Shown piece after piece: positions 8,012 to 55,815 of a DNA stretch of 64,000 bases (positions are counted from its first letter, which is position 1; each line of letters begins with the position of its first letter). The stretch spans positions 9,362,168 to 9,426,167 of the forward strand of contig OZ038531.1 of NCBI GenBank assembly GCA_964036665.1, in the 5' to 3' direction. The notes below the pieces were generated by a model. It ran no database searches. It saw nothing but the letters and a program-made list of their open reading frames with translations, and was not told the DNA's origin. Both the position numbers and the translations under genes were made by a program. The DNA comes from Gordius sp. MW1. Its lineage: Eukaryota; Nematomorpha; Gordioida; Gordea; Gordiidae.

Positions 8012-10596
8012 ATGAGCAATGCATCGAACACTATAATGCCGGGAAAAATTGGGATGAGAGGTGCAGAAATGTTTTTGAGAAAGACTTGTATCAAGACGTT
8101 CATTTTCAGGTATAAATATGCATGAAAATATATATATTAACATTTTAAAGTTTATAGAATCGGGGGCAGTTATAACCCACAAGGCACATAAACTTCTATT
8201 AGCCTTAATTAGTCCCGTCTTTGAAAAGATGTTTTTTGGTTCTATGGCTCAGACAAGTGTTAAAGATGAAATAATTACTATAACGATTTCAGACATAAGA
8301 AGCATCATTTTTTATGATCTTTTAAAGTATCAATTTACTTTATAAATTTTGTCTTAAATTGATTCACACAGATTTTTATATATTTTATTGTGTTAAATTT
8401 GGTTTCATATAAGGTTGTGATTTTTCATTTATTATAGTTTAATCTATGACATAGCAATACTGCCTGACATTGTTGTCGGTAGAGTTTCTAATTATGAGCG
8501 TGCCCAATATTGGATTGATCTACTGTATGCTGCAAAAAAATATATATTAAAAGAGGTTCAAATCGCCATCACCGATCATATAAACTTGAATATTGACGTA
8601 TATACCGCCTATTACTATTTTAATATTGGATCATCATTGCACAGTGAAATTGATATTGACACATGTGGAAGGTCAGATCATATATTAATTGTATATATAT
8701 TTATTTATATATTTTTTTATCAAATAGCTTTATAAGTTATTGTTGGGTTTAAAGTTAGTATTAGTTTATTTGTGACACGCATACCTCGTCGGGCACACGG
8801 CTCACATGCATTAAAGCTTTAGTCTCGATCAAACTAGTTGTTAAAACTGTTTTCTTATTAAAATGTCAGAATATAGGGTTGATTGGGGCGAGTACTAGGA
8901 TGGGGTTATTTTTTCTTTTCAGTGATTTACAAAAAAATATATTAAAAACCTAAGTAATATGTGTATCTTTTCAAGAGCCATATGTAAAAAATGTTTTAAA
9001 GATTAAAAACTGCGGTTAGTGTAGCCCATACAATTTTTGTATTTTTGGACCTAATTTGTTGTAGTTGCATATTCTGCACTTAATTTTATCTAGGCATATT
9101 TTTTCCAAAAACTTTATCGATAAGTAAATTTTGATTTGTATGTACAATGTTAACGTTGTATAATAATAGGGATCGGGACTTGTTGGAGATAAGTTAATGC
9201 TAAACATTCCTCATTTTTTTTTCCTCGCATATGATTTTTATAGTTACATTTAATAAAAAATGCCTATTGAAAAAAAAACATTCCTCATTGTATTTACTTA
9301 TTAAAAACAATTGACAAGATTTAATTTAAAAAAAAACTTTTGTTTATATTTTAACTCATGAAATAAAAAAAGCCTGCAAATATAAATAGACTATTTAAGG
9401 AGTTTTTCATTATAGAGTCTGTCTTTCATGGGTACATTTTTACTTTGTAAAATATAACATATTTGCATTGTCTATGTTTTTTAAATGAATCACCTTTTTA
9501 TTAAATTCTGTTGGCACGCACTCATAAGGTGAAAATATAAAGGCTTTTGTATCATTGGAACGGGGCTATGACTACCCGGGCACTTTAAATTTGTAGGGTA
9601 ATTGTTTTTTACCACTTAATTTATAAAAAAATTATTAATTGTAATTTTTTTTATTCAATATTTCCTATAGTAGAGATAGACCTTAAAACTATTTTAACAA
9701 TTGATTTTTAGTATTGTTTAAAAGGCGATTAAAAGTTTTAAGGCTATGCCAGCCCCGGGCTATAAAAACAATCTCTAATATCGATTCTAAAATTTTATAT
9801 TATATGCAAGGTTATTTGCGAAAATGGTGAAGATTTCATAAAATGTGATGCATTTTTGGACACCACAAAAGAGGATCTTCTTAAGTTTTTATCTGACGAT
9901 GAAACAATTGCCAAAGAAGTGGATTTGTTTCAAGCTACTATTAAATGGGTTAAACACAAAATGGGAAAAGGAAACGAAAATGTACTACCTGATCAAATCA
10001 GAAAATTTGCTGGCGAACCTATTATCCTTGCCATCAGATTTCCTTTAATAAGTAATAGCGATTTCAAGGATATTGTTATTAGCACAGGCCTACTTAGTCA
10101 AAAAGAAATAATTCAATGTCTTTATTATTACATCAAAAAAGAAGGTGCGGGTTCTAAGTTTTGCACTAAATCTAGGAGACAAAATGTAGAGTCCTATTTT
10201 TTTGCTAAGGCGATGTCTTCAGTAAGAACAACTACCTTACCTCTGGAAGATCAATTTGTTTTTAAAAAGAAATCTACATCAAAATTTTTTATTCGTGGCA
10301 TATACATGTTACCTGTAACTAATAGCGAAGATTTAAAAATTACCGTTTTTGGAAGTTCATCGACTCCTTTAACATACGGATATAAGAGGATGAGCGCTGA
10401 GGCACCTTTAATTGAAATAACCTTTGATAATCCAATAGAAATTGGCGCACATGTAAAAGCCATGACGATAAAGATACAATTACCTCCAGACATTAAAAGC
10501 AGCCATCGGATTTATGATTTGCAAACGATAAATGTTAAATCAGCTACTATCAAACCAAATACTAGTGGTAAATTCATATGCGGCTTGATAGCATAA
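8012..10596 (+). pseudogene. BTB-BACK-PHR (BTBD3/6-type) gene, copy B, two 1-nt deletions
   Basis: Same four-exon plan as copy A: 8012-8109, 8151-8326, 8438-8671 and 9811-10596; intron 1 is 41 nt. Exon 1 is 98 nt against 99 in the other copies because an A-run has five instead of six residues before TTGGGATG. Exon 3 is 234 nt against 235 because TGTGGAAG replaces TGTTGGAAG at the exon 3 donor. Each changes the reading frame. Exon 4 is fully open (rest of BACK plus PHR, stop at 10594-10596) and is the only copy with an undamaged 262-residue exon 4. Both lesions are single bases in homopolymers, so assembly error is a live alternative to pseudogenisation. Confidence 0.75.
9370..9790. repeat. 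Dispersed repeat in BTB copy B intron 3
   Basis: This stretch (AATAGACTATTTAA, TTTGCATTGTCTATG, GGCACGCACTCATAAGG) is recognisably related to 25890-26300 and, in shorter form, to 26330-26490 downstream of copy C. It is non-coding. It is either an old transposon or DNA co-duplicated with the gene. Confidence 0.5.
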
Positions 10597-12250: not shown

Positions 12251-14810
12251 AGGTGCTAAATTTATTTCATTGGTCAGTACCAAGTGACGGGCTATTAATA
12301 CATATGAGCCAAAAAAACGAAAATAAATTTTATACACATTTTGGCCAATAATCATTTTTTCCATTGGTCAGCAGCCAGGACACGGTAAAAGTGGATATAA
12401 GAACATAAGAGTAAAAAAAACGGAAAAAAAATTTTGATTCACAATTTGGCCAATGGTCATTTTTTTTATCGGTCAGTACCAAGAGACGGTTTATTAATAC
12501 ATATGAGCCAAAAAAACAAAAACAAAATTGATTCACATTTTGGCTAATGGTCATTTTTTTCTAATTGGTCAGAGCCAAAACACGGTAAAAGTGGATTTAA
12601 ATACATAAAGGTAAAAAAAACCGAAAAAAATTTTGATTCACATTTTGGTCAATGGTCATTTTTTTAATTGGTCAGCAGCCAGGACACGGTAAAATTGGGT
12701 ATAAATCTATAAGAGTCAGAAAACGAAAAAAATTTCGATTCACACTTTAGACAATGGTCATTTTTTTCCATTGGTCAGCAGCCAGCGGACGGCCAAAAAG
12801 TCATATTATCAATGGTAGTAACAAAAACAATATATTAATTTAAAAAAAAAAAATTGGCCCTCTCCGGGTATCGAACAAGCAATTAAGAATTTGCCCTCGC
12901 CGGGATTCGAACCCACACCAGTAGAGGCATAGGCTTTTGTAGGGGGGGGGGGCACAGGAACCCATATCAGTAGAGGCAGAGGCTCTTGTAGGGGGGGGGG
13001 GGGAACGGGGTAATTATCAATGTTAACCAAAAAATAACGAAAAAAAAATTTCGATCACTGGCCAATGGTTATTTTTTTCCATTGGTCAGCAGCCAGCGGA
13101 CGGCCAAAAAGCCAATATTATCAATAGTATTAACAAGAACAATATATTAATTAAAATAAAAAATTTGGCCCTCTCCGGGTATCGAACCAGCAATTAAGAA
13201 TTTGCCCTCGCCGGGATTCGAACCCACATCAGTATAGGCAAAGGCTTTTATAGGGGGGGGGGGGCACAGGAACCCATATCAGTAGAGGCATAGGCTCTTG
13301 TAGGGGGGGGGGCACATGGTAATTATCAATGTTAACCAAAAAAAAACGAAAAAAAAAATCGATTCACACTTTGGCCAATGGTCATTTTTTTCCATTGGTC
13401 CAGACTGGACATAAATACATAAGAGTAAAAAAAACGAGAAAAAAAATTTCGATTCACACTTTGGCCAATTTTTTTCCATTGGTAAGCAGCCCGGACGGCC
13501 AAAAAGTCATATTATCAATGGTACAAGAACAATATATTAATTTTAGAAAAAAATTAAAAAAAGTTTGGCCTCCCCGGGATTCGAACCCACATAATTAGAG
13601 GCATTGGCCTTCTTTGTAAGGATATCGTACTCAGGTTGGCTTATTACCTCGACGAAAAGCGTGATATTCGGTGCAAGGCATTCGGTGCGTGACAAGACAT
13701 CGGAAAATGGAAAGTGAGCCCATAAATTGCATAGCAATTCCATTTGGCCCTCTCCGGGTAGCAAACCAACGATTAAGAATTTGCCGTCGCCGGGATTCGA
13801 ACCCACATCAGGAAAGGCATAGGCTTTTGTAGGGGCGGGGGGGGGGGGTACAGGGACCCATATTAGTAAAGGCATAGGCTCTTGTAGGGGAGGGGACAGG
13901 TTGATTATTAATTTTAACCAAAAAAACGAGAGAAAAAAAATTTCGATTCACAATTTGGCCAATTGTTATTTTTTCCATTGGTCAGCAGCCAGCGGACGGC
14001 CAAAAAGCCAATATTATCAATAGTATTAACAAGAACAATATACTATTTTAAAAAAAAAGCAAAAAAAAATTTTTGGCCTCTCCGGGTATTGAACCCACAT
14101 CAGGAGAGGTATAAGCGTTTGTAAGGTGCGGACGCGTTCGGCGTGATATCGGAAAATGGAAAGTGAGCCGATAAATTGCATAGCAATTAAAATATCATTA
14201 AAGCCCGAATCTTGTTATGGTGCCCGCCCAAAAATCTAAATTTAAGGTTCGTTTTTTTATATTTAAACAACATTATCTCCCTTCAAAGTCGCAAAAAACA
14301 AAGTTTTAATTATAAAAATGACTTAATCGCAAAAATTTCTTAAATTTAATTAATAAAATTAAATCGATTCATAGATCAAAAACTCGGGCCTTCGGCCCTC
14401 GTGGGAAGGGGGAAAAGGGGGGGGGGGGGGGGGTTGGGAAGGGGAGGGGGGGAAGGGAAGGGGGGACGACTCACCTATACTCCGTATAAATGTATCATAT
14501 TTGCTATGCAATTTATGGGCGAGAAAAGTGGGAAGGGGCGAGAATGCCTATAGGGGGTATTAAATGCCTAATGATTAATTAATTATTTATACAAATTTTC
14601 CATCACTTTGGCCAGTGGTGATCTTTTTTAATGGTTAGCAGACAGTCAAATAACTAGCCTATAATTATAAGCAAAAAAAATTTCTATTTATTTGGCCAAT
14701 GGTCATTTTTTTCATTGGTCAGTAGCCAGCGGACGGCCAAAAAGTCATATTATCAATGGTATTAACAAGAACAAGATATTAATTTAATTTAAATAAAAAT
14801 TTTGCCCTCT
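12250..14810. repeat. Tandem/dispersed repeat array, forward orientation
   Basis: The sequence repeats blocks built from GATTCACATTTTGGCCAATG, TTTTTTCCATTGGTCAGCAG, AGCGGACGGCCAAAAAG and TATCAATGGTATTAACAAG at irregular spacing, interrupted by G-runs of 8-13. Some units carry a conserved CCGGGATTCGAACCC block. The open frames here are repeat artefacts. The same blocks occur inverted at 15535-16430 and again forward at 17860-19065. Confidence 0.85.
12895..13805 (-). repeat. tRNA-like T-arm / B-box motifs within the array
   Basis: On the - strand GGGTTCGAATCC, identical to the Pol III B-box / tRNA T-loop core, recurs at about 12901-12914, 13213-13224, 13577-13589 and 13792-13803, and again at 18680-18692. 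A second, poorer copy (GGTTCGATACC) lies near 13180 and is followed by a T-run. No full cloverleaf can be drawn: the 5' acceptor and D arm are missing. This suggests decayed tRNA-derived SINEs rather than tRNA genes. Confidence 0.6.
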
Positions 14811-15277
14811 CCTGGGATTGAACACGCTCCAGGTCAGAAAGCTGGGGCAAATAACTTGGTGGACAACGGACGGACGGACACCAAAAAACGAGCCCATAAA
14901 TTGCATAGCAATTAATACAAAAGTATCCAGGAATGTAATCTTTTGGCTAAATAAATTTCAGCACCTATGTTCAAATGCGTTTTTAATTAAAATGTCTCTG
15001 CCTACCTGTTTTTTTATTTTTAATTGCTATGCAATTTATGGGCTCGTTTTTTGGTGTCCGTCCGTCCGTCCGTTGTCCGTCCCTCCGTTGTCCGTCCCTT
15101 ACCCTATCTATTTGCATTGGGTATATTAGGTTATCGCTTTTTTAAATTAATGCATGAGAAAGAGGTGCCCCACCCCTCATCTCTATCTCCCTCGCTGTGT
15201 TATTTTTTAAATTAATGCATAAGAGGTGCCCCACCCCTCATCTCTATCTCCCTCGGTGTGTTATATATAAGATTTGT

Positions 15278-15535
15278 TAAATTATCTATTATATAATAAA
15301 CATAAATAAAAGTTGTTTACTTTTAATTGCTATGCAATTTAACTAGTTATATAATAAACATAAATAAAAGTTGTTTACTTTTAATTGCTATGCAATTTAA
15401 CTAGTTTTTGTTATATAATAAACATAGATAAAAGTTGTTTACTTTTAATGCTATGCAATTTAACTAGTTATATAATAAACATAAATAAAAGTTGTTTACT
15501 TTTTAATTGCTATGCAATTTAACTAGTTTTGGGGT
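15278..15535. repeat. Tandem array of about 60-bp units
   Basis: About four successive units containing ATAATAAACATAAATAAAAG, TTGTTTACTTTTAATTGC and TATGCAATTTAACTAG; one more unit lies at 15757-15817. The palindromic word AATTGCTATGCAATTTA also occurs singly at many sites (14180, 14510, 14905, 16720, 19175). Confidence 0.85.
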
Positions 15536-16512
15536 TAGAATCCCGGAGTTTTTTTTGACTCTTATGATTGTTCTTGTTACTATCATTGATAATAAGAATT
15601 TTTGGCCGTCCGCTGGCTGCTGACCAATGAAAAAAATGACCATTGGCCAAAATGTGAATCGAAATTATTTTTTTTGTTTTTTTTGACTATTATGATTGTT
15701 CCTGTTTCTACCATTGCTATTATGACTTTTTGGCCGTCCGCTGGCTGCTGACCAATGTTATATAATAAACATAAATAAAAGTTGTTTACTTTTAATTGCT
15801 ATGCAATTTAACTAGTTTTTGGGTTAGAATCCCTGAGTTTTTTTGATTCTTATGATTGTTCTTGTTACTATCATTGATAATAAGACTTTTTGGCAGTCCG
15901 TTGGCTGCTGACCAATGAAAAAAATGACCATTGGCCAAAATGTGAATCCGAGTTTATTTTTTCGTTTTTTTTTTGACTATTATGATTGTTCCTGTTACTA
16001 CCATTGCTATTATGACTTTTTGGCCGTCCGCTGGCTCCTGACCGATGGAAAAAATGACCATTGGCCAAAATGTGAATCGAAATTATTTTTTTCGTTTTTT
16101 TTACTATTATGATTGTTCCTGTTCCTACCATGGCTATTATGACTTTTTGGCCGTCCGCTGGCTGCTGACCAATGGAAAAAATGACCATTGGCCAAAATGT
16201 GATTCGAAAATTTTTTTTTCGTTTTTTTTTACTCTTATGAATTTATATCCATTTTTACCGTGTGCTGGCTGCGACCAATGGAAAAAAATGACCATTGGCC
16301 AAAGTGAGCATCAAAATTTTTTTTTCCGTTTTTTTGGCTATCATTGACTTATAGAGAATCTGTTGGTACTGACCAATAGAGAAAAAGTGACCATTGGCCA
16401 AATTTTTGATTTTTTTTGATTAAAAATTGTTCAAATTCAACAAAAAATTTCTCCCAACAATTCTGCAAATTCTTAACATTGTGTTGTTTTATAATATAAT
16501 GTTTGTTAGACC
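15535..16512. repeat. Left arm of about 1-kb inverted duplication
   Basis: This block (GACTCTTATGATTGTTCTTG ... AATATAATGTTTGTTA) is matched in reverse order and complement by 18078-19065. It contains reversed copies of the GGCCAATGG units. The separating DNA, about 1.56 kb, has no gene. Confidence 0.75.
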
Positions 16513-18077
16513 CATAATCACTAAAGGCCATAAAAACTAATGTAATACGCAACTAGATGCAAACACTAAATCTAACCCTAACCCTTGCCTATATTACATT
16601 TTGCCTTTATTACATTTTGCCTATAATGGAAAATTTGTATAAATAATTAATTAATCATTAGGCATTTAATACCCCCCTATAGGCATTCTCGCCCCTTCCC
16701 ACCTTTCTCGCCCATAAATTGCATAGCAAATATGATACATTTATACGAAGTACAGATGAGTCGTCCCCCCTTCCCTTCCCCTCTTCCCTTCCCTTTGGCT
16801 GCAACTTCAATTAATACTTTTTAAGCCGCCTTTCTAATTCGCCAATTGAGTTTGTGAATATTCTATAGTTAGTAGTTGTGATCAATAATATATACGCGAG
16901 CGTAGCCTAGATTCAAATTAAAGGGGGGCAATAACGATTTAGTAAGAGGCAAAATGTTCATATTTTTGAATTATAGTCTAAACTATATTAAATTTAAAAA
17001 AAATTGGATTTAGAGGAGGCAGCCGCCATGGGCGTAGCCAAGGAGGGCTGATAAGTTGGCCCGCATGTTTTGTGCCGATTCATTCCTTTAAGGGGCGAGG
17101 GGGTGGAGCGCAATCGATCAAAAAGCTATGCCCCGCCCCCCCCCCCCCGAAGGGTGGGTATTAATAGTACTGCTGCTGCACTTTGAGGGAGGTTGTGTGT
17201 GTGGTGGCGGATTAGATTAACCTTGGCAATGAATTCGTTTTATGAGCGCTTGCGCTACGCATTTTTGTCACTCACTGCCCCACAATTTTAGTGACATCAA
17301 ATATCCGCGGTAAATTTCTGATGTAAAAAAATCTTTGGGATCGTGTGTAAGTCGAGTGGGGGTAAGGTTTATATAGCCATTTTTTACATATGTGACATTT
17401 AACATCGAGTCATCGACTACACTTGGCTATAGACTTGGTTGCTGCTTACAAACGAGCCAGAACATAAATAAGAGCTCAGTAATTAGTAAAACTTTTTTAT
17501 ATAAAAATTCATAAATAATCTTAAAAGTCGTCCCCATTAAATTTCGCAGCCGATGGCACTAGAATTTATATGCAGCTCTACATATTGTTTTCAAGTATAA
17601 TAATTTTATCAAAATATTTTTATAACAAATTTGTTATACCTTTGTTAGAATATAGCTAATATTTAATTTTATCTCCCTTAAAAAACTTAGGAAGAACGTC
17701 TAGCGAGGTTGTGAGGCGATAACTCACTTCTATTAAAATTCGTGATTTGTGACTATTTGTGTCTCTTACTTGACTAATTAAAATTCCTTTCATACCAAGA
17801 ATTAACAAATAAATAGTAATTTAGAGCGTAATAATATTTTTATTTTACAAAAAGATACACTGTTATTTTTTTCATTGGTCAGTAGCCAGCGGACGGCCAA
17901 AAAGTCATATAATCAATGGTATTAACAAGAACAATATATTAATTTAATTTAAAAAAAATCCTCATAACATATGAAAGAGTTAAGATAAGAGTATAGTGAA
18001 ATGCAGTAAATTAATAAATGGGGTAAATCACTAAGTTTAAAAACGAGTATATGTGCCAAAATTCAAAAATATTTAAA
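16513..18077. other. Spacer between inverted arms, no gene
   Basis: No coding exon seen. It holds the right arm of the 14395-16800 foldback, GCGTAGCC-type MITE fragments near 16897 and 17029, and a C-run near 17140. One forward GGTCAGTAGCCAGCGGACGG unit lies at 17876. Confidence 0.5.
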
Positions 18078-19065
18078 ATTAGGCGTGTAACAAACATTAT
18101 ATTATAAAACATCACAATGTTAAGATTTTGCAGAATTGTTGGGAGAAATTTTTTGTTGAATTTGAACAATTTTTAATTAAAAAAATCAGAACAAAATTTT
18201 AACAGCAATAGAAGATTTTTGGATTCACATTATGGCCAATGGTCATTTTTTTCCTTTGGTCAGCAGCCAGGACACGTTAAAAGTCGATATAAATACATAA
18301 GAGTCAAAAAAAAAATTCGATTTACACTTTGGCCAGTGGTCATTTTTTTCATTGGTCAGTACCAAGAGACAGTCTATTAATATATAAGAGCTAAAAAACG
18401 AAAAAAAATTTTCGATTAACATTTTGGCCAATGGTCATTTTTTTCCATTGGTTAGCAGCCACCAGACGGCCAAAAAGCCATATTATGAATGGTATTAACA
18501 GGAACAATCATAAGAGTCAAAAAAAACGTAAAAAAAAACTTTCGATTCACATTTTGGCCAATGGTCATTTCTTTTATTAGTCAGCAGCCAACGGACGGCC
18601 AAAAAGTCTTATTATCAATGGTATTAACAAGAACAATATATTAATTTACAAAAAAAATAAAAAAAAATTTGGTCTCTCCGGGATTCGAACCCACATCAGG
18701 AGAGGCATAGGCTTTTGTAGGGGGGGGGGGCACAGGGACCCATATCAGTAGAGGCATAGGCCCTACTAGGGGAGGGCATAGGTTAATTATTTATTTTAAC
18801 AATGAAAACGAAAAAAATAATTTCGATTCACATTTTGGCCAATGGTCATTTTTTTCCATTGGTCAGCAGCCAGCGGACGGCCAAAAAGTCATAATAGCAA
18901 TGGTAGTAACAGGAACAATCATAATAGTCAAAAAAACGAAAAAAAACGTGGATTCACATTTTGGCCAATGGTCATTTTTTTCATTGGTCAGCACCCAACG
19001 GACGGCCAAAAGTCTTATTATCAATGGTAGTAACAAGAACAATCATAAGAGTCAAAAAAAACTCA
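18078..19065. repeat. Right arm of about 1-kb inverted duplication
   Basis: Reverse complement of 15535-16512, beginning AACATTATATTATAAAACA and ending with AACAATCATAAGAGTC. The right arm carries an extra tRNA-like T-arm unit (18680-18692) and a G-run absent from the left arm. Confidence 0.75.
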
Positions 19066-19471
19066 CCCAAAAACTAGCTAAATTAACAAAAATTAAAAAA
19101 ACAACGTGACAAGACATTCGGTGCAAGACAACGCAAGACACCGAACAGCGTTACAAACAAAATGGAAAGCGAGCCCATAAATTGCATAGCAATTAACAAT
19201 TAATACAAGCGCGTTAAGAGTCCGCAAATCAGAAAATATCAAAACAGTTTTTTTTGCAATCTCAATCTTAAGCTAACCTTTTATATAAATTTTAAATAAA
19301 GAGCATTTTATATTTGAGAGTAATTACATGTTAAAGTTAGGGAGGCAATTTATTTTATTTAAAAAATTGTCTAGCTAAATTTTAAAAATTATTTTTGTTA
19401 TGGTGGCCAAGAAGACCAGGATTTTGACCTTGGGAAATATTGGCCCGTTCGGCCAACCCCTAGCTAAGTAG

Positions 19472-23211: not shown

Positions 23212-24984
23212 ATGAGCAATGCACAGAAGACTATGATGCCAGGAAAAAATTGGGATGAGAGGTGTCAAAATGCTTTTGGGAAAAATTTATATCAAGATGT
23301 TCATTTTCAGGTATAAATGTGCATGAAAATATTTATTAAGATCATAAAGTTTATAGAATCTGGGGTAGTTATAACGCACAAGGCACACAAACTTCTATTA
23401 GCATTAATTAGTCCAGTCTTTGATAAGATGTTTTATGGTTCTATGGCGCAATCAACTGCTAAAGATGATATAATTACTGTATTGATTTCAGACATAAGAA
23501 GCATAATTTTTTATGATATTTTAAAGTAATAACTCAAAATATAAATTTGTATGAAAATCTATTTATACCAAATTTTAATGCATTCTAACATATAAAATAG
23601 GTCGCATAAAGTTCTTATTTTTTATTTCTAATAGTTTGATCTATGACATTAAAATATTGCCTCGCATCATTGTCGGTAAAGTGTCTAATCAGGAGCGTGC
23701 CCAATATTGGATTGATCTATTGTATGCTGCTAAAAAATACATTTTGAAAGATATCCATATCGCCATCACCAATCATATAAACCTGAATATTTACGTATAT
23801 TCCGCATATTACTATTTAAATTTTGGATCAGCATTGCATCGTGAAATTGATATTGATACGTGCTGGAAGGTAAGATTATTAATCATGAAGATATGTCATA
23901 GTACATATAATAGACCTAAAATTTAACTATTTTTTTCCAAGTAGCTGACCATTTATTGATAAAGGTTTTTGTTGGTTCATAAATTTATGTTTTATTTAAT
24001 CCGTCGAGCACAATTCGCATGCAATACATTTAAAATTAAGTCTCAATATTATTTTATACAAATTTAGACAGTTGGCTCATCATGGATATTCATACTTATT
24101 CAAAATATGCGCCTTAATAATAAAATCATGAGCTTAGGCTAAAAACCAATTTTTAATATTAATATCAAACTTATTTTCATGTATATGCAAGGTTATATAT
24201 GAAAATGGTGAAGACTTCATAAAATGTGATGCATTTTTGAACACCACAGCGGAAGATCTTATTAAGTTCTTATCTGATAATTACAACTATTGCTCACGAG
24301 GTGAAATTGTTTCAGGCCACTATCAAATGGGCTAAACACAAAATGGGGAAAGAATACGAAAATGTACAACCTGATAAAATAAGAAAATTCGTTGGCGAAA
24401 ATACTCTACTTGCCATCAGATATCCGTTAATGAGTAGTAGCGATTTTAAAGAACTTGTTATTAGCACAGACCTACTAAAGCAGGAGGAAATAATTGAAAT
24501 TCTATATTGTTACATTAAAAAAGAAGGTTTGGCTTCTAAGTTTTGCATTAATCCTAGGAGGCAAAAATCAGAGTCCTATTTTTTTGCCAAGGCGCAATAT
24601 TCATCAACATCTATTACCTTACCACTGGAAGATCAATTTATTTTTGAAAAGAAATCAGCATCAAAATTTTTTATTTATGGTGTATACATGCTACCTGTTA
24701 AAAATAGCGAAACTTTCACAATTACCGTTTTTGGAAGCTCATCGGCTCCTTTAACCTCCGGATTCAGAAAACAGGGGTTGAGCTCTTATGAACCTTTAAT
24801 TGAAATAACCTTTGAAAATCCAATAGAAATTGGCTCACATGTCAAAGACATGACGATAAAAATACAATTGCCTTCTAACATGCAAGGCAACCATCTGGTT
24901 TGTGATTTGCAAACAATAAATGTGAAATCAGCAACTATCAAACCACAAATGAATGGCCAATTTTAATGCGGCTTGATAGCATAA
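23212..24984 (+). pseudogene. BTB-BACK-PHR (BTBD3/6-type) gene, copy C, frameshift and early stop
   Basis: Exons 23212-23310, 23350-23525, 23635-23869 and 24192-24984; intron 1 is 39 nt and all junctions are GT-AG with the same phases as copies A and B. BTB residues are intact in exons 1-3 (NWDERC, DVHFQ, THKAHKLLL, SPVFDKMFYG, YAAKKY). In exon 4 an extra base near 24282 shifts the frame right after LSDN, the place where copy A has its stop codon. The PHR frame then reopens at about 24301. A second lesion, TAA at 24964-24966, removes the last five residues; the ancestral stop is at 24982-24984. As sequenced it cannot make a full BTB-BACK-PHR protein. Confidence 0.78.
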
Positions 24985-30100: not shown

Positions 30101-33100
30101 TCTCTTAACACATCTCACCCATACGTTTTTGTATACAAAAAGATAAAAAAATCTATCAGGCCAATACATGCCCATCTCCTATTTTTTTTTATTTATCACT
30201 TTGAATATTTAGATCTTAATTGATTCAAAAAATGTGATTTTAAACAATTATAGTCCTATTTCCTTAAATTGATTTATAAATGAATTAGGCACAATTTATA
30301 CTAGTGATGGGAAAACGCTTAGCACGAGCGCGCTTAGCACCTCCCCGCTGATGGGAATAGCCTATTAAATACGCTATGTCTACTAGCACATAGTCACTTT
30401 AAGCGCTATAAGCTATAGGAGATGGGAGGTTTGAGGTGCTAGAGCTATGGGAGATGGGAGGTTTGAGGCGCTATGTGCTATAGGAGATGGGAGTTTGAGG
30501 TGCTATGTGCTATAGGAGATGGGAGTTTGAGGTGCTATGTGCTATAGGAGATGGGAGGTTTGAGGCGCTATGTGCTATAGGAGATAGGAGTTTGAGGTGC
30601 TATAGCCGATTGCACTTAAATGCGCTACTCCTATAGCACCGGCGCTAACACTGGGAATAATTTTTTTAATTGTTTATTTTGTTTTTGTTGAATATTAAAA
30701 TACATCTGAATATAATTTTTTTGCCCTATCTTACCATCTAACTACGACTTATTTTAATATAAATTAAATTAAATGTATGACTTTAATTTTATTTTGCATT
30801 GCTTCTACATTTATTTTATCAATAAGTCGCCCCCCCCCCCTCTGAATGACGGGAAAAAATTTTTTCCAATTAAAAAAACCCTTACAAATTAATAATTTTT
30901 TTTATTTAGCCCCTCCCTAATTCAACTTTTATTTTAACCGTTTGCCCCCTCCCCTTAATTCAAAACCTAGTTATGCCCATAGACTACATAGACTGCCCAT
31001 GTTATAGGTTCCATATGGCAAATTGTGTGTGAAATTTGCCTCCATTTTGAGTAACACTACCGTCCTATATCACATAATGGCGTTTTGCGCTGTACCGTTT
31101 TGTTCGAACAGGAGAGGTAAAGAAAAAAATTTTTGATACCATAAATAAGTAAGATATTACAAAATATATGATATTTTTAAAAATTTATTATTGACACATT
31201 TCATAAAAATTAAAAATGTAAAAACTGTAATGATGTTAAATTTTTTTAAAAATATAATATATTTTGTAATATCTTACTTATTTATAAAATCAAAACCATT
31301 TTTCTTTACCTCTCCTGTTCGAACAAAACGGCAGAGCGCAAAACGCCATTATGTGGTATAGGACGGTAGTGTTATTCAAAATGGCGGAAAAAAACACACA
31401 CATTTTATACCGTGATGAGCAGTCTATGTAGTCTATGGTTATGCCCTACGCCCATGTTTTTGAGAATAAAAAAATTAAACTCCCCCTTTCCTTAAGTTAA
31501 TATGTTTCAATTAAAAGGAAAACAATTTGAAACATAATCGCCCTGATGGGATATGGATTAACTCAAGGGAAGGGGGAGTTTAATTTTTTTATTCTCAAAA
31601 ACATGGGGTAGGGTAGGGCATAACTAGGTTTTGAATTAACCCCCCCCCCTCCCCGATTGAAAAAGAGTATTTTTTTAAATATTAAACATTTTGTTTAAAA
31701 TTCATAATTTAGATTTTTTAAATAAAATACTTAGCATTTTAATAAAAAAAACTTAGCAGTTCAAAATAAAAACTTAGCAATTTAATAATAAAAACTTAGC
31801 ATTCATAAATAAAATACTTAGCATATCCTTTAAAATACTTAGCATAAATTACTTAGCAATTTGTAATTATTTACTTAGCAGTTAAATAACACCCTTTTTT
31901 AATTTTGTTTTTTCGAACAATATATTTTTAATGGAAAATTGTTTATTAGATTACACACAAGTTCATATTATACTCTATTGTTTTCATTGAAATTATTCCC
32001 AGTGTTAGCGCCGGTGCGCGCATTTAAGTGCTATCGGCTATAGCACATAGCACCTCAAACTCCCATCTCCTATAGCACCTCAAACCTCCCATCTCCTATA
32101 GCACCTCAAACTCCCATCTCCTATAGCACATAGCACCTCAAACTCCCATCTCCTATAGCACATAGCACCTCATACCTCCCATCTCCTATAGCACCTCAAA
32201 CTCCCATCTCTAGCTTATAGCACCTCAAACCTCCCATCTCCTATAGCTTATAGCACCTCAAACCTCCCATCTCCTATAGCTTATAGCACTTAAAGTGACT
32301 ATGTGCTATAGCTTTAGCTCCTTAAAAACGCTATTTCCCCATCACTAATTTATACCAACAATAAAAGTGATGAATAGATATTATTATAATGTAAATTGTT
32401 AAAATTAAAATTTCTATTGAGAAATTTATACCTAGTCGACAAAAACTTCCAAATTTAATATTAACTTTATTGAAACAACTTTTCTATATTTATAAAAAAA
32501 TAGTTCACTTATAGCTTTTCTCATATTTTTTTATAGAAAATTAATAAATGTGGGTTAAGTTTAAATGCTTACTTTTTTATCATCCGAAGATAATTGACTC
32601 AAAACATCTGGTTGCCTAATAGGACCCTGACCAGCTTTATAAAGAGCTCCTGCTAAGATGAAAGTTATTGACATATTTTTTGGATCATGCCTATAAAACA
32701 AAGGCAGGGAACACCTAATTTACAAATTTTAGGTGTGTTCAATAAAATTGATTCTTACTTTTTACATTTTAATCTATATTGTTTTTCAACACTTTTTTCA
32801 CCATTCCTTATATGAACAATATCATCATCATCATATGTAATTTTATATGCATGTTTGTTTGAATCAATCACTCTCGAACTATCCCTCTTTCTGAAAGGCA
32901 ATCTCTCCATAGCACAATCTATTATTTTATTAATAAAAAACAATAAAATACAAAATTTATCATTTTATACATGCAAATAATTATAATTTAATTGTAATAC
33001 AATAATAATTCATGAATAATTTTAGTTGACAATAATTTTTTCGATTTGTCATTTAAAATTTCAGATAAAAGTTTTTCTTTTTCTTCTTTTGTAGCACACT

Positions 33101-34354
33101 TTTTTAAAGCATTGCTAAAATCAAAATAGGTTGGGTATTTAGTTAATATGCCATGAGCTTTGTCCATTGAAATTCCATTGAATACCAAAAGTTGTTTGGC
33201 AAATATATCTCTCAGAGTAAGATTTTTATTTTTAGAAGTAAGAGAATTGAATTTTGAAAAGTTTATTAAAGTTATTTCTTTACTATGGATAAAAGATGAA
33301 TTTTTGTAATTTAATAGTTCAGGCATGTCACATTCCTTTAATGACATATTGGTAAAAGTTTTAAGTACTTTTTTATGAAATAAGATTAAAAGATCGACAG
33401 AATTAGCAAGATTACTGCTATATATAATATGAAATTTATCAATGATCATTGTATTGGTTATTGCTTGTTTAAGGGTATCAATTGGCAAACCCCTGTAATT
33501 TATGGAATCCAATCCTTCTACAAGATAAATTGGACTTATAAAAGCATATTTGTTAAGCCTATACTTTTGTTCCCTAAATCTACCATCTTTAATGCTGTGT
33601 GATAAGTCTTCAGCCTTCTTTCTTTCAATTATATAAGGTAACACCAATGGTGGTTTACTACGATCATTTATATCTTGCGCTACCCAGAGAAAATCCCCAA
33701 GAGAAAGCCTTTTAATTTCAAATTTGATGTGACTTTGATTTAAATGACAAATAGCCTGTTTCTTAAATTTTTGATTATTCTCTGAAGAATCTATATATAA
33801 TATTAACTCAAAGTTTTGGGTACAGAGATAATTATTTGATTCTGCATCTAAGGATATTATGTTACGTTTGTCATTGTTTCTATGCTTAACTGAAAGGGAC
33901 TGATATTTCTTCAAGTGCAGTTTTTTATTTCCATATTTTATATTTTTCTTAGGAGTATTATTTAAACTTAAACAATTAGAGCTTGTTGAAAGGCATTCAT
34001 TTAACTTTTCATCTAAAATTTCTGCTAACCCATTTCCAATACCTTTTAAAATAATAGTTTCTTTTCCACTTTTCAATGGAAGTGGATATAATTTTAATGA
34101 CTTAAGAGCTTTAGAATAGGTATATTGTAATTTAGAATTTTCTTTTTGTGCATCCTTTTTAAGCTCCTTGACCCAGCCAATATATAAATTATTAGGATAA
34201 GGATATGATTTTAATGAAGTCATTAAAAATTACCTAGAATAAGAACCATTTTTCCGCATATGCAGTAGTACACATATAAAGGCTTTTCCGATCGAGATTC
34301 TTCTTTGTTTTTCACATCAGTAACTACTATACTTCGCGATACAATTCTGGGCAT
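27198..34354 (-). CDS. STEEP1: STEEP1 / CXorf56 orthologue (STING ER exit protein)
   Basis: Five exons on the - strand: 34354-34234, 32918-32759, 32714-32573, 28123-28034, 27350-27198. They join in phase to 221 residues; the human protein has 222. Introns are GT-AG; intron 2 is 44 nt. Signature stretches: VSRSIVVTD at the start, YYCIC (C31, C33), [20 protein letters not shown] (C92, C95), [30 protein letters not shown] followed by an acidic run, and KGTLIDN near the C-terminus. In vertebrates the protein promotes STING exit from the ER; its role in this animal is not known. Intron 1 (1,315 nt) contains MUS81 on the same strand, intron 3 a 2-kb hAT element, and intron 4 a MITE. The start follows the family N-terminus. 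Confidence 0.95.
27797..27996. mobile_element. MITE, AAACGGCTGGG family, copy 1 (STEEP1 intron 4)
   Basis: TATCAAAACGGCTGGGTTTT at the left and AAAACCCAGCCGTTTTTAAA at the right form terminal inverted repeats, with GTTTGGTCGAC just inside. Three related copies lie at 51640, 53329 and 56241, all intronic. Confidence 0.8.
28579..29545. repeat. MITE and hAT terminal fragments in STEEP1 intron 3
   Basis: CATGGACGAAGCCAGAATTTT (28579) and CCAATCCTGGCTACGGCCATG (to 29541) look like left and right ends of GGCGTAGCC-type MITEs. CAGCGGTTCCCAAACTTTTT near 28718 matches a hAT-type terminus. None can be closed into a whole element. Confidence 0.45.
30978..31437. mobile_element. Foldback MITE nested inside the hAT element
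   Basis: Near-perfect palindrome starting CATAGACTACATAGACTGC and ending GCAGTCTATGTAGTCTATG. It is flanked by an 8-bp duplication GTTATGCC (30970-30977 and 31438-31445). The arms are about 170-200 bp, including GGCGTTTTGCGCTG, TTTTGTTCGAACAGGAGAG and their inverse. A hAT-sized duplication suggests hAT mobilisation. Confidence 0.85.
31729..31880. repeat. Interspersed ACTTAGCA octamer array
   Basis: Eight ACTTAGCA copies within 152 bp, separated by 8-16 AT-rich bases, inside the 30302-32347 element. Possible subterminal transposase-binding repeats; that role is inference. Confidence 0.75.
32926..32931 (-). promoter_or_regulatory. AATAAA polyadenylation hexamer at the end of STEEP1 intron 1
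   Basis: The canonical hexamer lies 57 nt past the MUS81 stop and 5 nt before the AG acceptor (32920-32919) of STEEP1 exon 2. It could supply the 3' end of an intron-retaining MUS81 mRNA. In AT-rich DNA a chance match is quite possible. Confidence 0.4.
32988..34223 (-). CDS. MUS81: MUS81 structure-specific endonuclease, intronless, nested in STEEP1 intron 1
   Basis: 411 residues in one exon. The N-terminal helix-hairpin-helix is clear ([28 protein letters not shown], residues 37-76). Next comes a short linker, then the ERCC4/XPF nuclease domain with D145, GDF at 176-178 and the catalytic ERKKAED at 200-206, followed by [13 protein letters not shown] and [12 protein letters not shown]-terminal HhH region follows (residues 335-410). 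MUS81 pairs with EME1-type partners and cleaves branched DNA at stalled forks and recombination intermediates in the nucleus. Human MUS81 has 551 residues; the shortening is mainly in the linker, where the winged-helix domain should be. The ORF begins 10 nt inside STEEP1 intron 1 and ends 69 nt before its acceptor. Absence of introns suggests retroposition. Confidence 0.95.
   Translation of the reverse strand: MTSLKSYPYPNNLYIGWVKELKKDAQKENSKLQYTYSKALKSLKLYPLPLKSGKETIILKGIGNGLAEILDEKLNECLSTSSNCLSLNNTPKKNIKYGNKKLHLKKYQSLSVKHRNNDKRNIISLDAESNNYLCTQNFELILYIDSSENNQKFKKQAICHLNQSHIKFEIKRLSLGDFLWVAQDINDRSKPPLVLPYIIERKKAEDLSHSIKDGRFREQKYRLNKYAFISPIYLVEGLDSINYRGLPIDTLKQAITNTMIIDKFHIIYSSNLANSVDLLILFHKKVLKTFTNMSLKECDMPELLNYKNSSFIHSKEITLINFSKFNSLTSKNKNLTLRDIFAKQLLVFNGISMDKAHGILTKYPTYFDFSNALKKCATKEEKEKLLSEILNDKSKKLLSTKIIHELLLYYN
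34219..34235 (-). promoter_or_regulatory. TAATG stop/start overlap at the STEEP1 exon 1 donor
   Basis: The exon 1 donor is CTAG|GTAATTTTTAATG on the - strand. If intron 1 is retained, the STEEP1 frame runs three codons further and stops at TAA 34225-34223, whose last A is the first base of the MUS81 ATG (34223-34221). A retained transcript would thus present a 43-codon upstream ORF and MUS81 in a termination-reinitiation configuration. The geometry is seen directly; its use is inference. Confidence 0.7.
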
Positions 34355-34359
34355 TAAAA

Positions 34360-35023
34360 AGCCAATTGGTTACATTTTAATAAATGTGTAGCGTCGGAAA
34401 AATTACAGACAGGGGCGTGTAGGTGGAGAGGGTCCCGAATTAGAACCCACCCCCTTACCATTGGCAAATAGATAAAAAAAATTTGAGTCATAGTGAAAAA
34501 GTCAATGAATAATATATTACCATAATTAAGTTTAGTATTTTTCATTTATACAGTAATTTCATTAACTATCGAAAAATTTCTCGAATTTCCGCTTATTGTT
34601 TTTTTGTACAATAAAGCGATTGATATAAGGTAAACTAATATATATACACACCCCCTACCAAATAACCTACAGTAACCAAAAGAGTGCAGCAACAACGCGA
34701 ACCTTCTTAAAGAACTACAGGGCTGGCGTTTTAAAAATATGTTGCTGTGTTTTTTTCTCCAGCCCCAGCTAACGTCAGTAATCAAAGAAGTGCATCCAAA
34801 CAAATCGAACCGTCTTCCAAGGCTTGTGGCTTAACTAGAGGTCCCCCTTCCCTTAAACTAACGTCCAGTAACCAAAGTAGTGCGATCAAACAAGGCAAAC
34901 TATCTTAAAGTACTACAGAGCTTGCGGCTTGATTATAGGTTATTCCTTTATTTCTTTTTTAACGCCAGTAATCAAAGTGCAAGCGAGTAAGGTAAACTAA
35001 TCCTTAAAGAAACACAGAGCAAA
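34360..35023. other. Upstream flank of STEEP1, no gene
   Basis: No coding exon seen. Near-duplicate phrases (CCAGTAACCAAAGTAGTGC, GTCAGTAATCAAAGAAGTGC, CAGTAATCAAAGTGC, each followed by AAACAA or AAGGTAAAC-like text) recur at about 34670, 34770, 34865 and 34965, a degenerate tandem repeat of roughly 95-100 bp. It would contain the STEEP1 promoter. Confidence 0.5.
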
Positions 35024-35028
35024 GGTAT

Positions 35029-36823
35029 TATCGTGTACCCATACACGAAGAATGAAGTTAGCGTATCCGGAGATACAAGTATACAAAGACTAAGCCAGAT
35101 GTTTACTTTGTTTGTAAAAGGTATAGACGCCGCCGCCACACGTCTCTCCTTTTCTAATTAAGTTTAGTACGCATATGAAATTCCCCCCCCCGACGCGCTG
35201 ATATTATTTATTTTATCTCCATATATGATTGTGTATCACTGATAATATGCCTGAGTCATTATGATAGTACGGGGATATCTTTTAGATATTAATTAATTTA
35301 TTCTTGGTTGTATTTGTGTAATAGAAATAAAGTTTATACACAAGAGAGATTTTAGTTTAATAATACGACATTTTACCGGGGAGAAGGTTGGTTTTCCCCG
35401 GCCCCCTATCATCCAGTAAAATCTCCCCAATATATCTCTAAAAACTCCCCAATATATCCTAAATGACCTATCCCCCTTTTCATCAATTTAATCCCGCCAC
35501 AAATGTTCTTCCCAAGTTATTCTGGGTCCAACAAGTTTTTAATCATATCACATAAAAATGCCTGGATATGAAATTGGCGCCGGATTAAAAAAGTAATCGA
35601 ACCATCCCCATCATAAATTAGACCAAAGGAGATGTACCCAGGCCAAGAAAAACAATTTCTTTAAAAAAAAATGAAATACCCCCGGAAAACAATTCGGTAA
35701 AAACAAATTACCCCTACTATTCGGAATTGAAAAATCATTCTAGACAAATTACCCCTACTATTCTGAATTGAGAAATCATTCTAAGAAATTACTCCTGAAA
35801 TTCCCCTTCATTCAAACCTTCTTTTTAGTATTATTCTCATTTTTCAGGATATAACAGAAGTTCAAAATTCACACCCTCGGATATTCCTATTCAGCATATA
35901 TAAAATCGCATCCTGTACAAATCTAAATTTCATCTGGTTAAAGAAATCAGGAATTATTCAACCAGGAAATAATTAATACGATGCATCATAGGACAAGAGT
36001 ATCCGATAACAGATGGCAACACGCACTGCAAGAAAATGTTTAGGATTCAGAGAGCAGGGATTAGTTTACCACAATTTAAAGAGCGGGGAAAAAGAACATG
36101 AAAAGTCCCACAAGCCATAAATGAGGTAAATCCCGTTGGCCATGGATTCTTCAAAAGAAAATACTGCGTAAATTCATTGAAGTTAGTTTGATATTTTTAA
36201 TGTTAAGACCGGAAAATTTTTCACACCCCCCCCCATCACCCAGAGGGAGCATACAAGTTTGGTAAAGGGAAAGATATCGTGTACCCATACACGAAGAATG
36301 AAGTTAGCGTATCCGGAGATACAAGTATACAAAGACTAAGCCAGATGTTTACTTTGTTTGTAAAAGGTATAGACGCCGCCGCCACACGTCTCTCCTTTTC
36401 TAATTAAGTTTAGTACGCATATTAAATTCCCCCCCCCCCCCGACGCGCTGATATTATTTATTTTATCTCCATATATGATTGTGTATCACTGATAATATGC
36501 CTGAGTCATTATGATAGTACGGGGATATCTTTTAGATATTAATTAATTTATTCTTGGTTGTATTTGTGTAATAGAAATAAAGTTTATACACAAGAGAGAT
36601 TTTAGTTTAATAATACGACATTTTACCGGGGAGAAGGTTGGTTTTCCCCGGCCCCCTATCATCCAGTAAAATCTCCCCAATATATCTCTAAAAACTCCCC
36701 AATATATCCTAAATGACCTATCCCCCTTTTCATCAATTTAATCCCGCCACAAATATTCTTCCCAAGTTATTCTGGGTCCAACAAGTTTTTAATCATATCA
36801 CATAAAAATGCTTGGATACGAAA
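35029..36823 (+). mobile_element. Non-autonomous LTR retrotransposon, about 1.8 kb
   Basis: LTRs at 35029-35573 (545 bp) and 36275-36823 (549 bp) are nearly identical, so the insertion is young. A 5-bp target duplication GGTAT lies at 35024-35028 and 36824-36828. TTGGCGCCGG directly after the 5' LTR fits a primer-binding site, and the purine run AAAGGGAAAGA immediately before the 3' LTR fits a polypurine tract. The ends read TATCG...GAAA rather than TG...CA. The 700-bp interior has no gag or pol, so it must be mobilised in trans. Confidence 0.88.
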
Positions 36824-45705: not shown

Positions 45706-46923
45706 TTACTCATGCCTAGTTTCGATATAAAGGGTTGTCAAATTTTTTACTTTGTATAACTTCGAGCCCTCCTGCTTAACAATCTCGCCTATTACCCATT
45801 TAGGTCCCTTTAAATAATTCCTATACCAAACCTTTTGGTTTACTTTAAATTTGGAACTGTTTAACCCAGATAAATCTGACTCGGGACATTGTAAAAAGTC
45901 CGGTGGGTACCTCAATTTTCTATTTAAAAATTCGTAGCTTACGGAGGGACGATTAGGATACCTTGGGGACATATTATGGTATAATTTTAACAGCCAAGTG
46001 CCTCCTTTCGTCTCTTTAGCTACCCTTAACCATTTTTTTACTATCCCTACGTACCTTTCAACCTGCCCATTTGAGCTAGGGTGATAAGGAGGAGTTAGCA
46101 AATGGTTAATTTTAAATTCTAAACAAAAACTTTTAAATTCTACGCTTACGAAAGCCTTTCCATTATCCGTAACCATTACAGTTGGAAATCCGTATGCGCC
46201 AAATAATTCTTTTAAAATATTTATTGTTACTTTACTTGACATGCTAGAAACGTTTTTAAATTCCGTCCAACCGGAAAATGCGTCAACTATTAAAATAAAA
46301 CGTTTATTGTCAAATTCAAAAAAATCTATATGTATTCTCTCCCACGGAGAATTGGGACGCGGCCACCTGGCCTTTTTATTTCTGCGGGGCATAGGTGCAT
46401 CAAGCTTACAAAGCTCGCACTGCCTGACAAATAATTCAATATCCTTATTCATCTTAGGCCACCACGCATATTGTCGGGCTAGTCCTTTCATCTTAACCAT
46501 TCCTGCATGCCCTTGATGCAAAACATTTAACACCTCCTGACGCAGTTTAACAGGAACCACCACCCTTTCATGGCGCATTATAACTTTGTTTTCCAAGTAC
46601 ATTTCATTTATAACATGTTTAAAAGGTAATGGTGTGTCATTACTATCGTCTAGGCCTAACAAAATGTTTTTTACTTTACATATATCTTGGTCAGCATTAC
46701 TTTCGGTTAAGATTTCATCAAAATCCAAAATTTTAATAGCGTTTATTACCTGCCCTCCTATAATATCGCAATATAAAAGATCATCCTTAGCTTCAATGCT
46801 ATCTGCGCCCAAACGCGATAAAACGTCCGCTAAATGATTGTCTTCACCTTTGCAATATATAAGAGTTAAGGTAAAATTGCCTAACATTACCAGCCAACGT
46901 TGTAATCTACTAGACATTAACAA
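45706..46923 (-). CDS. Gypsy pol: end of RNase H plus integrase
   Basis: 405 codons. Residues 1-40 are the RNase H end (NHLADVLSRLG at 29-39). Integrase follows: the zinc-binding HHCC (H136, H139, C169, C172), catalytic D200, D253 and E289 with the D-35-E spacing, then a C-terminal strand-rich domain (KVWYRNYLKGPKWVIGEIV). Integrase inserts the cDNA into host DNA. All key residues are present. The - frame continues upstream (DHKPLVALFKKANDELLMS) to about 46990, where similarity changes abruptly to Gag/protease sequence because the RT is missing. Not autonomous. Confidence 0.9.
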   Translation of the reverse strand: MLMSSRLQRWLVMLGNFTLTLIYCKGEDNHLADVLSRLGADSIEAKDDLLYCDIIGGQVINAIKILDFDEILTESNADQDICKVKNILLGLDDSNDTPLPFKHVINEMYLENKVIMRHERVVVPVKLRQEVLNVLHQGHAGMVKMKGLARQYAWWPKMNKDIELFVRQCELCKLDAPMPRRNKKARWPRPNSPWERIHIDFFEFDNKRFILIVDAFSGWTEFKNVSSMSSKVTINILKELFGAYGFPTVMVTDNGKAFVSVEFKSFCLEFKINHLLTPPYHPSSNGQVERYVGIVKKWLRVAKETKGGTWLLKLYHNMSPRYPNRPSVSYEFLNRKLRYPPDFLQCPESDLSGLNSSKFKVNQKVWYRNYLKGPKWVIGEIVKQEGSKLYKVKNLTTLYIETRHE

Positions 46924-47095
46924 TTCATCGTTAGCCTTTTTAAATAAAGCAACCAGAGGTTTATGATCCGTGATTACAGTAAATGATTTACCAATTAAGT
47001 ATTCGCGACAACGCTGTAATCTACGTTATCAATCTCTATCACCGCAGATGGTGTAATTGATTCGTTAAAAAAATTTATTTTATCCTCGCGGCCAT

Positions 47096-49134: not shown

Positions 49135-55815
<6,681 letters not shown>

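Follow-up and report, generated by a model that had tools for sequence, protein, structure and literature searches.

An intronless MUS81 gene lies within intron 1 of STEEP1 in the nematomorph Gordius sp. MW1

VAChT and ChAT lie on the same strand and act in one pathway. The accessible text of PMC3053374 describes VAChT as a single-exon open reading frame (ORF) located wholly within the first ChAT intron, an arrangement conserved in nematodes, Drosophila and mammals. In insects, as described in the available portions of Krauss et al. 2006 (PMC1435931), a one-exon Su(var)3-9 lies in a phase-1 intron of eIF2gamma, and two mRNAs are made from a common promoter. The guest is one large exon in all 21 species analysed, retrotransposition was suggested, and these portions give no extra non-fused copy in six insect genera whose genomes were complete or almost so. 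In H13/Mcts2, the accessible part of PMC13309782 describes a guest within a host gene subject to intronic polyadenylation, with Mcts2 imprinted and transcribed from its own intragenic promoter. Coupling of two ORFs through termination-reinitiation at UAAUG or UGAUG was measured for influenza B segment 7, and the available text of PMC5972666 also cites a GAD splice variant and an upstream ORF (uORF) of SLAMF1. Molecular data on nematomorphs are called scarce in the accessible part of PMC10380579. Here we describe a 64-kb window (64,000 nucleotides (nt) of contig OZ038531.1, C5 in our numbering) of the Gordius sp. MW1 genome, in which a complete, intronless MUS81 ORF lies within intron 1 of STEEP1 on the same strand.

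The host gene comprises five exons encoding 221 residues (663 coding nt), separated by four GT-AG introns of 1,315, 44, 4,449 and 683 nt with fitting phases. Its product matched the Pfam STEEP1 domain PF25809 (2e-36). A protein search returned 576 matches at E<=0.001, and the best 120 listed showed 51-62% identity at 90-100% query coverage, under the names STING ER exit protein or CXorf56-like, or as unnamed or hypothetical proteins. The Gordionus homolog (55% identity) ranks 20 among these 120; 38 exon-1 residues read alike in the two worms, and the exon-3 acceptor at 32715 yields CSLPLFY, matching the Gordionus protein. A search of the Gordius genome itself (211,818,799 bases in 12 contigs) gave five STEEP1 matches, one per exon at this locus, and none elsewhere. 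The label "innate-signalling" for this protein rests on the vertebrate name; a STING family search of the same genome gave no match, with the controls likewise silent.

The guest ORF contains three Pfam domains in order and over cut-off, HHH_8 (residues 10-75, 1.8e-15), ERCC4 (144-279, 5.1e-27) and EME1-MUS81_C (341-398, 1.1e-8), and carries the motifs GDF at 176 and ERKKAED at 200, leaving ERKxxxD intact. Seven of the eight solved sequences that matched it are named MUS81 (best 3.8e-44), and the eighth bears the name of a putative ATP-dependent RNA helicase (9e-5). Its best match among 646 proteins (best 120 listed) is the Gordionus protein, with 42% identity over the whole length and an agreeing N-terminus and start. 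Among 113 near-invariant columns (at least 95% identical in 119 homologues, the best 120 listed minus Gordionus), the window protein retains 86 and the Gordionus protein 78. Judged by eye, 13 of the 27 departures are conservative and the other 14 non-conservative, and D145, D177, E200, R201, K202 and D206 are all retained. PF21136 was not detected in the window protein; many of the vertebrate and coral rows listed have it, and the Gordionus and spider rows do not.

A genome search with MUS81, in which five candidates were scored, gave one match, and no second, intron-bearing MUS81 was found. The ERCC4 family had two matches in the genome, the MUS81 ORF and one on contig C8. The latter, possibly XPF, spans only positions 20-89 of 140 in a 102-residue open frame, as if interrupted. 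Because the genome-wide match is single, MUS81 function depends on this nested locus, and for the same reason we regard the gene as very likely to be expressed.

The exon-intron structure given by the sequence-only reading (exon 1 ending at 34234, exon 2 beginning at 32918, phases matching, 221 residues) agrees to the base with our rebuilt gene model. Its nested geometry also proved exact: the whole 411-codon ORF lies in the 1,315-nt intron on the same strand, with 10 nt between the donor and the MUS81 ATG and 69 nt of intron left after the MUS81 stop. If intron 1 is retained, the STEEP1 frame runs for 43 codons and ends, as that reading had it, at a TAA sharing its last base with the MUS81 ATG. 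The presence of a complete MUS81 gene in this intron is beyond chance. The features of the locus are collected in Table 1.

Table 1. Coordinates of STEEP1, MUS81 and associated sequence features in the window
Feature	Position	Strand	Remarks
TTTTTAATG at STEEP1 start	34352-34360	minus	Identical nine bases at MUS81 start, 34221-34229
STEEP1 exon 1	34354-34234	minus	121 nt coding, ends in phase 1 with CTAG; residues 1-41 recovered at 98% by own-genome search
TTCTTATTCTAG, exon 1 end	34245-34234	minus	Acceptor-like candidate 3' splice site for MUS81; 9/10 pyrimidines
STEEP1 intron 1	34233-32919	minus	1,315 nt, GTAATT...AATAG
TAATG	34225-34221	minus	TAA of retained STEEP1 frame (34225-34223) overlaps MUS81 ATG by one base
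MUS81 ORF, intronless	34223-32988	minus	411 codons, ATG start; only MUS81 match in own genome
AATAAA	32931-32926	minus	Sole one between MUS81 stop and intron end; candidate intronic poly(A) signal
STEEP1 exon 2	32918-32759	minus	Gene model and own-genome search
STEEP1 exon 3	32714-32573	minus	Follows 44-nt intron; gene model and own-genome search
STEEP1 exon 4	28123-28034	minus	Gene model and own-genome search
STEEP1 exon 5, including stop	27350-27198	minus	Gene model and own-genome search

Repeats lie within STEEP1 and upstream of it. Intron 3 holds an element (30373-32312) that looks like a non-autonomous DNA transposon, with inverted arms made of arrays of about 32-nt repeats; the arms are up to 98% complementary and 1.4-1.8 kb apart, and a second inverted repeat lies inside the element (31020-31406). 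Starting 675 bases upstream of the STEEP1 ATG are two direct copies of about 549 nt (35029-35573 and 36275-36823), 98.5% identical, which may be a recent duplication or an element resembling a long terminal repeat.

Trees were built from 17 MUS81 and 19 STEEP1 rows picked from the best 120 listed for each protein. In both, the window sequence groups with Gordionus (support 100/100 for MUS81, 99/99 for STEEP1). The MUS81 tree contains MUS81 rows only, without an EME1 or XPF outgroup; the window and Gordionus rows are both long and are flagged for composition and, together with one wasp row, for length. Because of these flags, the placement with Gordionus relies on the agreement of the two trees. 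Gordionus has one member of each family, MUS81 on a contig of 54,603,052 bp and STEEP1 on one of 64,442,710 bp, two contigs told apart by their lengths, so the nesting is apparently not common to Gordionus.

The explanation that we favour, with a probability of roughly 0.55, is that MUS81 is a single-exon retrocopy in STEEP1 intron 1 whose parent was lost, and that its RNA originates in the STEEP1 5' region through alternative processing. MUS81 was most likely retrocopied into the intron, after which the parent gene would have disappeared, and transcription from the STEEP1 5' region would now serve both genes. Splicing of intron 1 would yield STEEP1. When the intron stays unspliced, the RNA would consist of STEEP1 exon 1 and MUS81, with cleavage probably taking place at the intronic poly(A) signal. 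In this RNA the STEEP1 start would become that of a 43-codon uORF ending at the MUS81 AUG, which ribosomes might reach either by bypassing the weak first AUG in leaky scanning or by terminating and reinitiating at UAAUG.

The argument for a shared 5' region comes from the geometry. With only 10 nt between donor and ATG, a MUS81 leader that is encoded in cis and exceeds 10 nt has to include STEEP1 exon-1 sequence; only trans-splicing or a leader of at most 10 nt would escape this, and the MUS81 messenger almost certainly starts with STEEP1 sequence. Such a leader may come from the STEEP1 promoter, from a start site inside exon 1, or from splicing onto the AG at the exon end; a one-promoter switch between STEEP1 and MUS81 appears likely. 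A STEEP1-MUS81 fusion protein made through intron retention was also considered and is ruled out by stops. A stop shortly before FLM closes the MUS81 frame, no host-coded residues are shared, and the 10 nt contain no 3' splice site of their own.

The 3' end of the alternative RNA can be specified further. The AATAAA stands seven bases from the intron end, so cleavage would fall at the start of exon 2 and the choice between polyadenylation and splicing would be exclusive. Were intron 1 retained and introns 2-4 spliced, an exon junction would lie 229 nt past the MUS81 stop and would likely trigger nonsense-mediated decay; because of this risk, cleavage at the AATAAA looks more likely than retention alone.

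The retro-origin was judged from intron content. STEEP1 has one intron per 166 coding nt, a density at which about seven would be expected in a 1,233-nt coding sequence, and MUS81 has none. An intron-rich STEEP1 and a seemingly interrupted ERCC4 frame on C8, set against an intronless MUS81, fit a retrocopy, and the simplest history is one of retrocopying followed by disappearance of the parent.

Several results weigh against the favoured explanation. No target-site duplication was found in the flanks (the longest common word, 6 nt, was reached in 496 of 500 shuffles) and no poly(A) tract in the 69-nt tail after the MUS81 stop; with neither scar found, the case for a retro-origin is built on the absence of introns and on the different contig in Gordionus. 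An AATAAA would occur in the 69-nt tail by chance with a probability of 0.16-0.23. Selection for a clean intron within MUS81 was rejected, with no clear depletion of processing signals relative to synonymous shuffles: GTAAG occurs 0 times (mean 0.42), GGTAA 0 times (mean 1.28; 390 of 2,000 shuffles as low), AATAAA 3 times (mean 2.85) and an acceptor-like tract once (mean 0.29).

The AUGs of the proposed RNA point both ways. Five AUGs from the STEEP1 ATG onward precede that of MUS81 (34354, 34317, 34275, 34259 and 34249). Three of their frames stop before the MUS81 AUG; the other two, those of 34354 and 34249, are closed by the TAA that shares one base with it. Four of the five have T or C at -3, including the first (T at -3, C at +4). 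The closed frames and the weak first AUG speak for the favoured explanation. Against it, the AUG at 34249 (AAAATGG), in the STEEP1 frame, stands in a strong context (A at -3, G at +4), and T occupies position -3 of the MUS81 AUG; together these imply poor MUS81 translation from exon-1 RNA. A further three AUGs, up to 137 nt 5' of the STEEP1 ATG, also count against it if transcription begins that far up. From the exon-1 set, leaky scanning alone would bring few ribosomes to MUS81; help could come from stop-restart, from an exon-1 start site, or from use of the AG at 34234 as a splice acceptor.

The one-base overlap itself is also less telling than it first appears. Its chance probability is 0.15 in random intron-like sequence with the phase and the 8-base spacer between GT and ATG fixed, and 0.03 with a random spacer length; TA stands directly before about 9-10% of the window's ATGs. 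The same nine bases stand at the STEEP1 start, where the TAA of TTTTTAATG terminates an upstream frame of 45 codons that begins at 34491. Across the window, TTTTTAATG accompanies four of 1,114 minus-strand ATGs, two of them the STEEP1 and MUS81 starts, and five of 1,036 plus-strand ATGs. Either a start context used in this genome or chance may account for it, the pattern having been noticed after the fact, and its presence at the STEEP1 start takes weight from a special coupling role at MUS81. The predicted RNA fold around the overlap and leader is not unusual (z -1.25). Thus, the overlap from which the sequence-only reading had derived coupling is present as described, and coupling through it is speculative, since the overlap falls within chance (0.03-0.15) and recurs at the STEEP1 start.

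The alternative that survives best, although we consider it unlikely, is that MUS81 has its own start site in STEEP1 exon 1, past the STEEP1 ATG, so that a short leader avoids the 43-codon uORF and the two are overlapping genes with separate promoters. The five exon-1 AUGs favour it, as they would make RNA from the STEEP1 start inefficient for MUS81. The cholinergic locus offers a parallel, having multiple promoters, and a title cited in the accessible text of PMC3053374 places VAChT promoters in the first ChAT intron of rat. Against this, the core of such a promoter would necessarily overlap a coding exon of 121 nt whose protein is strongly conserved with Gordionus.

As to history, it is also rather unlikely that MUS81 was nested anciently and lost its introns in place without retrocopying, the Gordionus copy having moved out later. 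The lack of retrocopy scars speaks for such a course, as does a comparison that covers one other nematomorph. Complete intron loss is most simply achieved by retrocopying, and the separate location of the STEEP1 and MUS81 genes in human counts against an old nesting.

We rate as doubtful the proposal that the boundary at the end of exon 1 is used twice, its AG serving also as the 3' splice site for an upstream alternative exon or a trans-spliced leader, which would give a MUS81 leader ending in GTAATTTTTA. The AG/GT step would then be the 5' site for STEEP1 and the 3' site for MUS81, and the exon-1 uORFs would be removed from the MUS81 mRNA. The tract TTCTTATTCTAG is one of two among 227 coding AGs in five stretches with 9/10 pyrimidines (0.043 under a synonymous null with local codon usage). 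The codons for VLIL, however, account for much of this tract, and the four real STEEP1 acceptors have only 3-6/10 pyrimidines, so the measure is not this genome's signal and the dual-site idea is a lead only. SL1 RNA was not matched through Rfam in the genome, with 50 of 63,028 candidates scored and the controls also silent. The C. elegans SL1 exon gave 0 matches at up to 3 mismatches (reversed control, 1 and 2), a result compatible with a diverged leader, and the literature searched contained no paper combining Nematomorpha, spliced leader and trans-splicing. We give a similarly low probability to a reading in which AG/GT at 34234/34233 is a dual-specificity boundary that decides which of the two unrelated proteins is made; its fallback is a cellular stop-restart at UAAUG that would tie MUS81 translation to the STEEP1 start codon.

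That MUS81 is a decaying or silent passenger discarded with intron 1 is very improbable: fast evolution (end branch 1.43 in the MUS81 tree, though 2.46 for Gordionus) and a G+C content at third codon positions of 0.214, the lowest among the five coding stretches compared, would suit it, and against it stand 411 codons kept open in AT-rich DNA, an intact ERKxxxD, the 86 of 113 near-invariant columns retained, and the status of only match in the genome.

The rest of the window contains repeats, gene copies and retroelement pieces. Three BTB-BACK-like gene copies lie on the plus strand (259-2631, 8079-10596 and 23579-24966); BTB and BACK domains were found in the second, a piece of the first (646-981) had no Pfam match, and the rest was assigned by sequence likeness. 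Repeats with the motif GGCCAATGGTCATTTTTTTCCATTGGTCAGCAGCC occupy 12260-19109, and a close reverse-complement form on contig C8 indicates that they are dispersed. A retroelement pol piece with RNase H, integrase zinc-binding and core domains (45706-47025) and a reverse-transcriptase piece (61455-61742) were also present. ABC ATPase pieces, apparently intron-split, lie on the plus strand at 49575-55020, and by eye we take them to be ABCE1-like. Scans of the window for tRNAs and Rfam families gave nothing above threshold.

Comparison of this locus with the described systems shows both likenesses and differences. The sequence-only reading knew of no description of the pairing, and the pair was indeed not found in the literature searched, where the names STEEP1 and MUS81 were not searched jointly and subscription papers mostly fell outside the scope; the nested type, by contrast, is described in the accessible texts on Su(var)3-9/eIF2gamma (PMC1435931) and VAChT/ChAT (PMC3053374). 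Within the literature searched, MUS81 was never brought together with nested genes and introns, CXorf56 and MUS81 are both mentioned, once each, in two papers, and the papers listed on nested genes do not name MUS81 in their titles or the abstracts displayed. As far as the latter text goes, MUS81 resembles VAChT in being a single-exon ORF entirely within host intron 1, and differs in that no joint function with its host has been shown and that the nesting is apparently not common to Gordionus. It shares with Mcts2, as portrayed in the available part of that source, the position of a nested guest and, in the favoured explanation, intronic polyadenylation of the host, and Mcts2 differs in its intragenic promoter and imprinting. 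The loci discussed for termination-reinitiation show, in the accessible text, the same one-base stop/start overlap; there reinitiation was measured (influenza B) or proposed, whereas here the overlap alone is seen, and no UGGGA core was seen by eye in STEEP1 exon 1.

Su(var)3-9/eIF2gamma, as described in the available portions of PMC1435931, is matched in several respects: MUS81 is likewise a functionally unrelated single-exon guest on the same strand in a phase-1 host intron, with no other copy found. The Su(var)3-9 exon, unlike MUS81, joins the host exons through its own acceptor, and the two proteins share an N-terminus; at STEEP1, the 10 nt between donor and ATG leave no room for a private acceptor in the intron, and no residues are shared. 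MUS81/STEEP1 is a pair not found in the literature searched and a tighter form of a known type of nesting. If MUS81 is expressed as proposed here, every transcript that makes it is one that does not splice STEEP1, which would make a conserved trafficking protein and the sole MUS81 found in this genome obligate competitors for each transcript. The locus would then be one more instance, this time from a non-insect, of two unrelated genes that came by accident to share a start.

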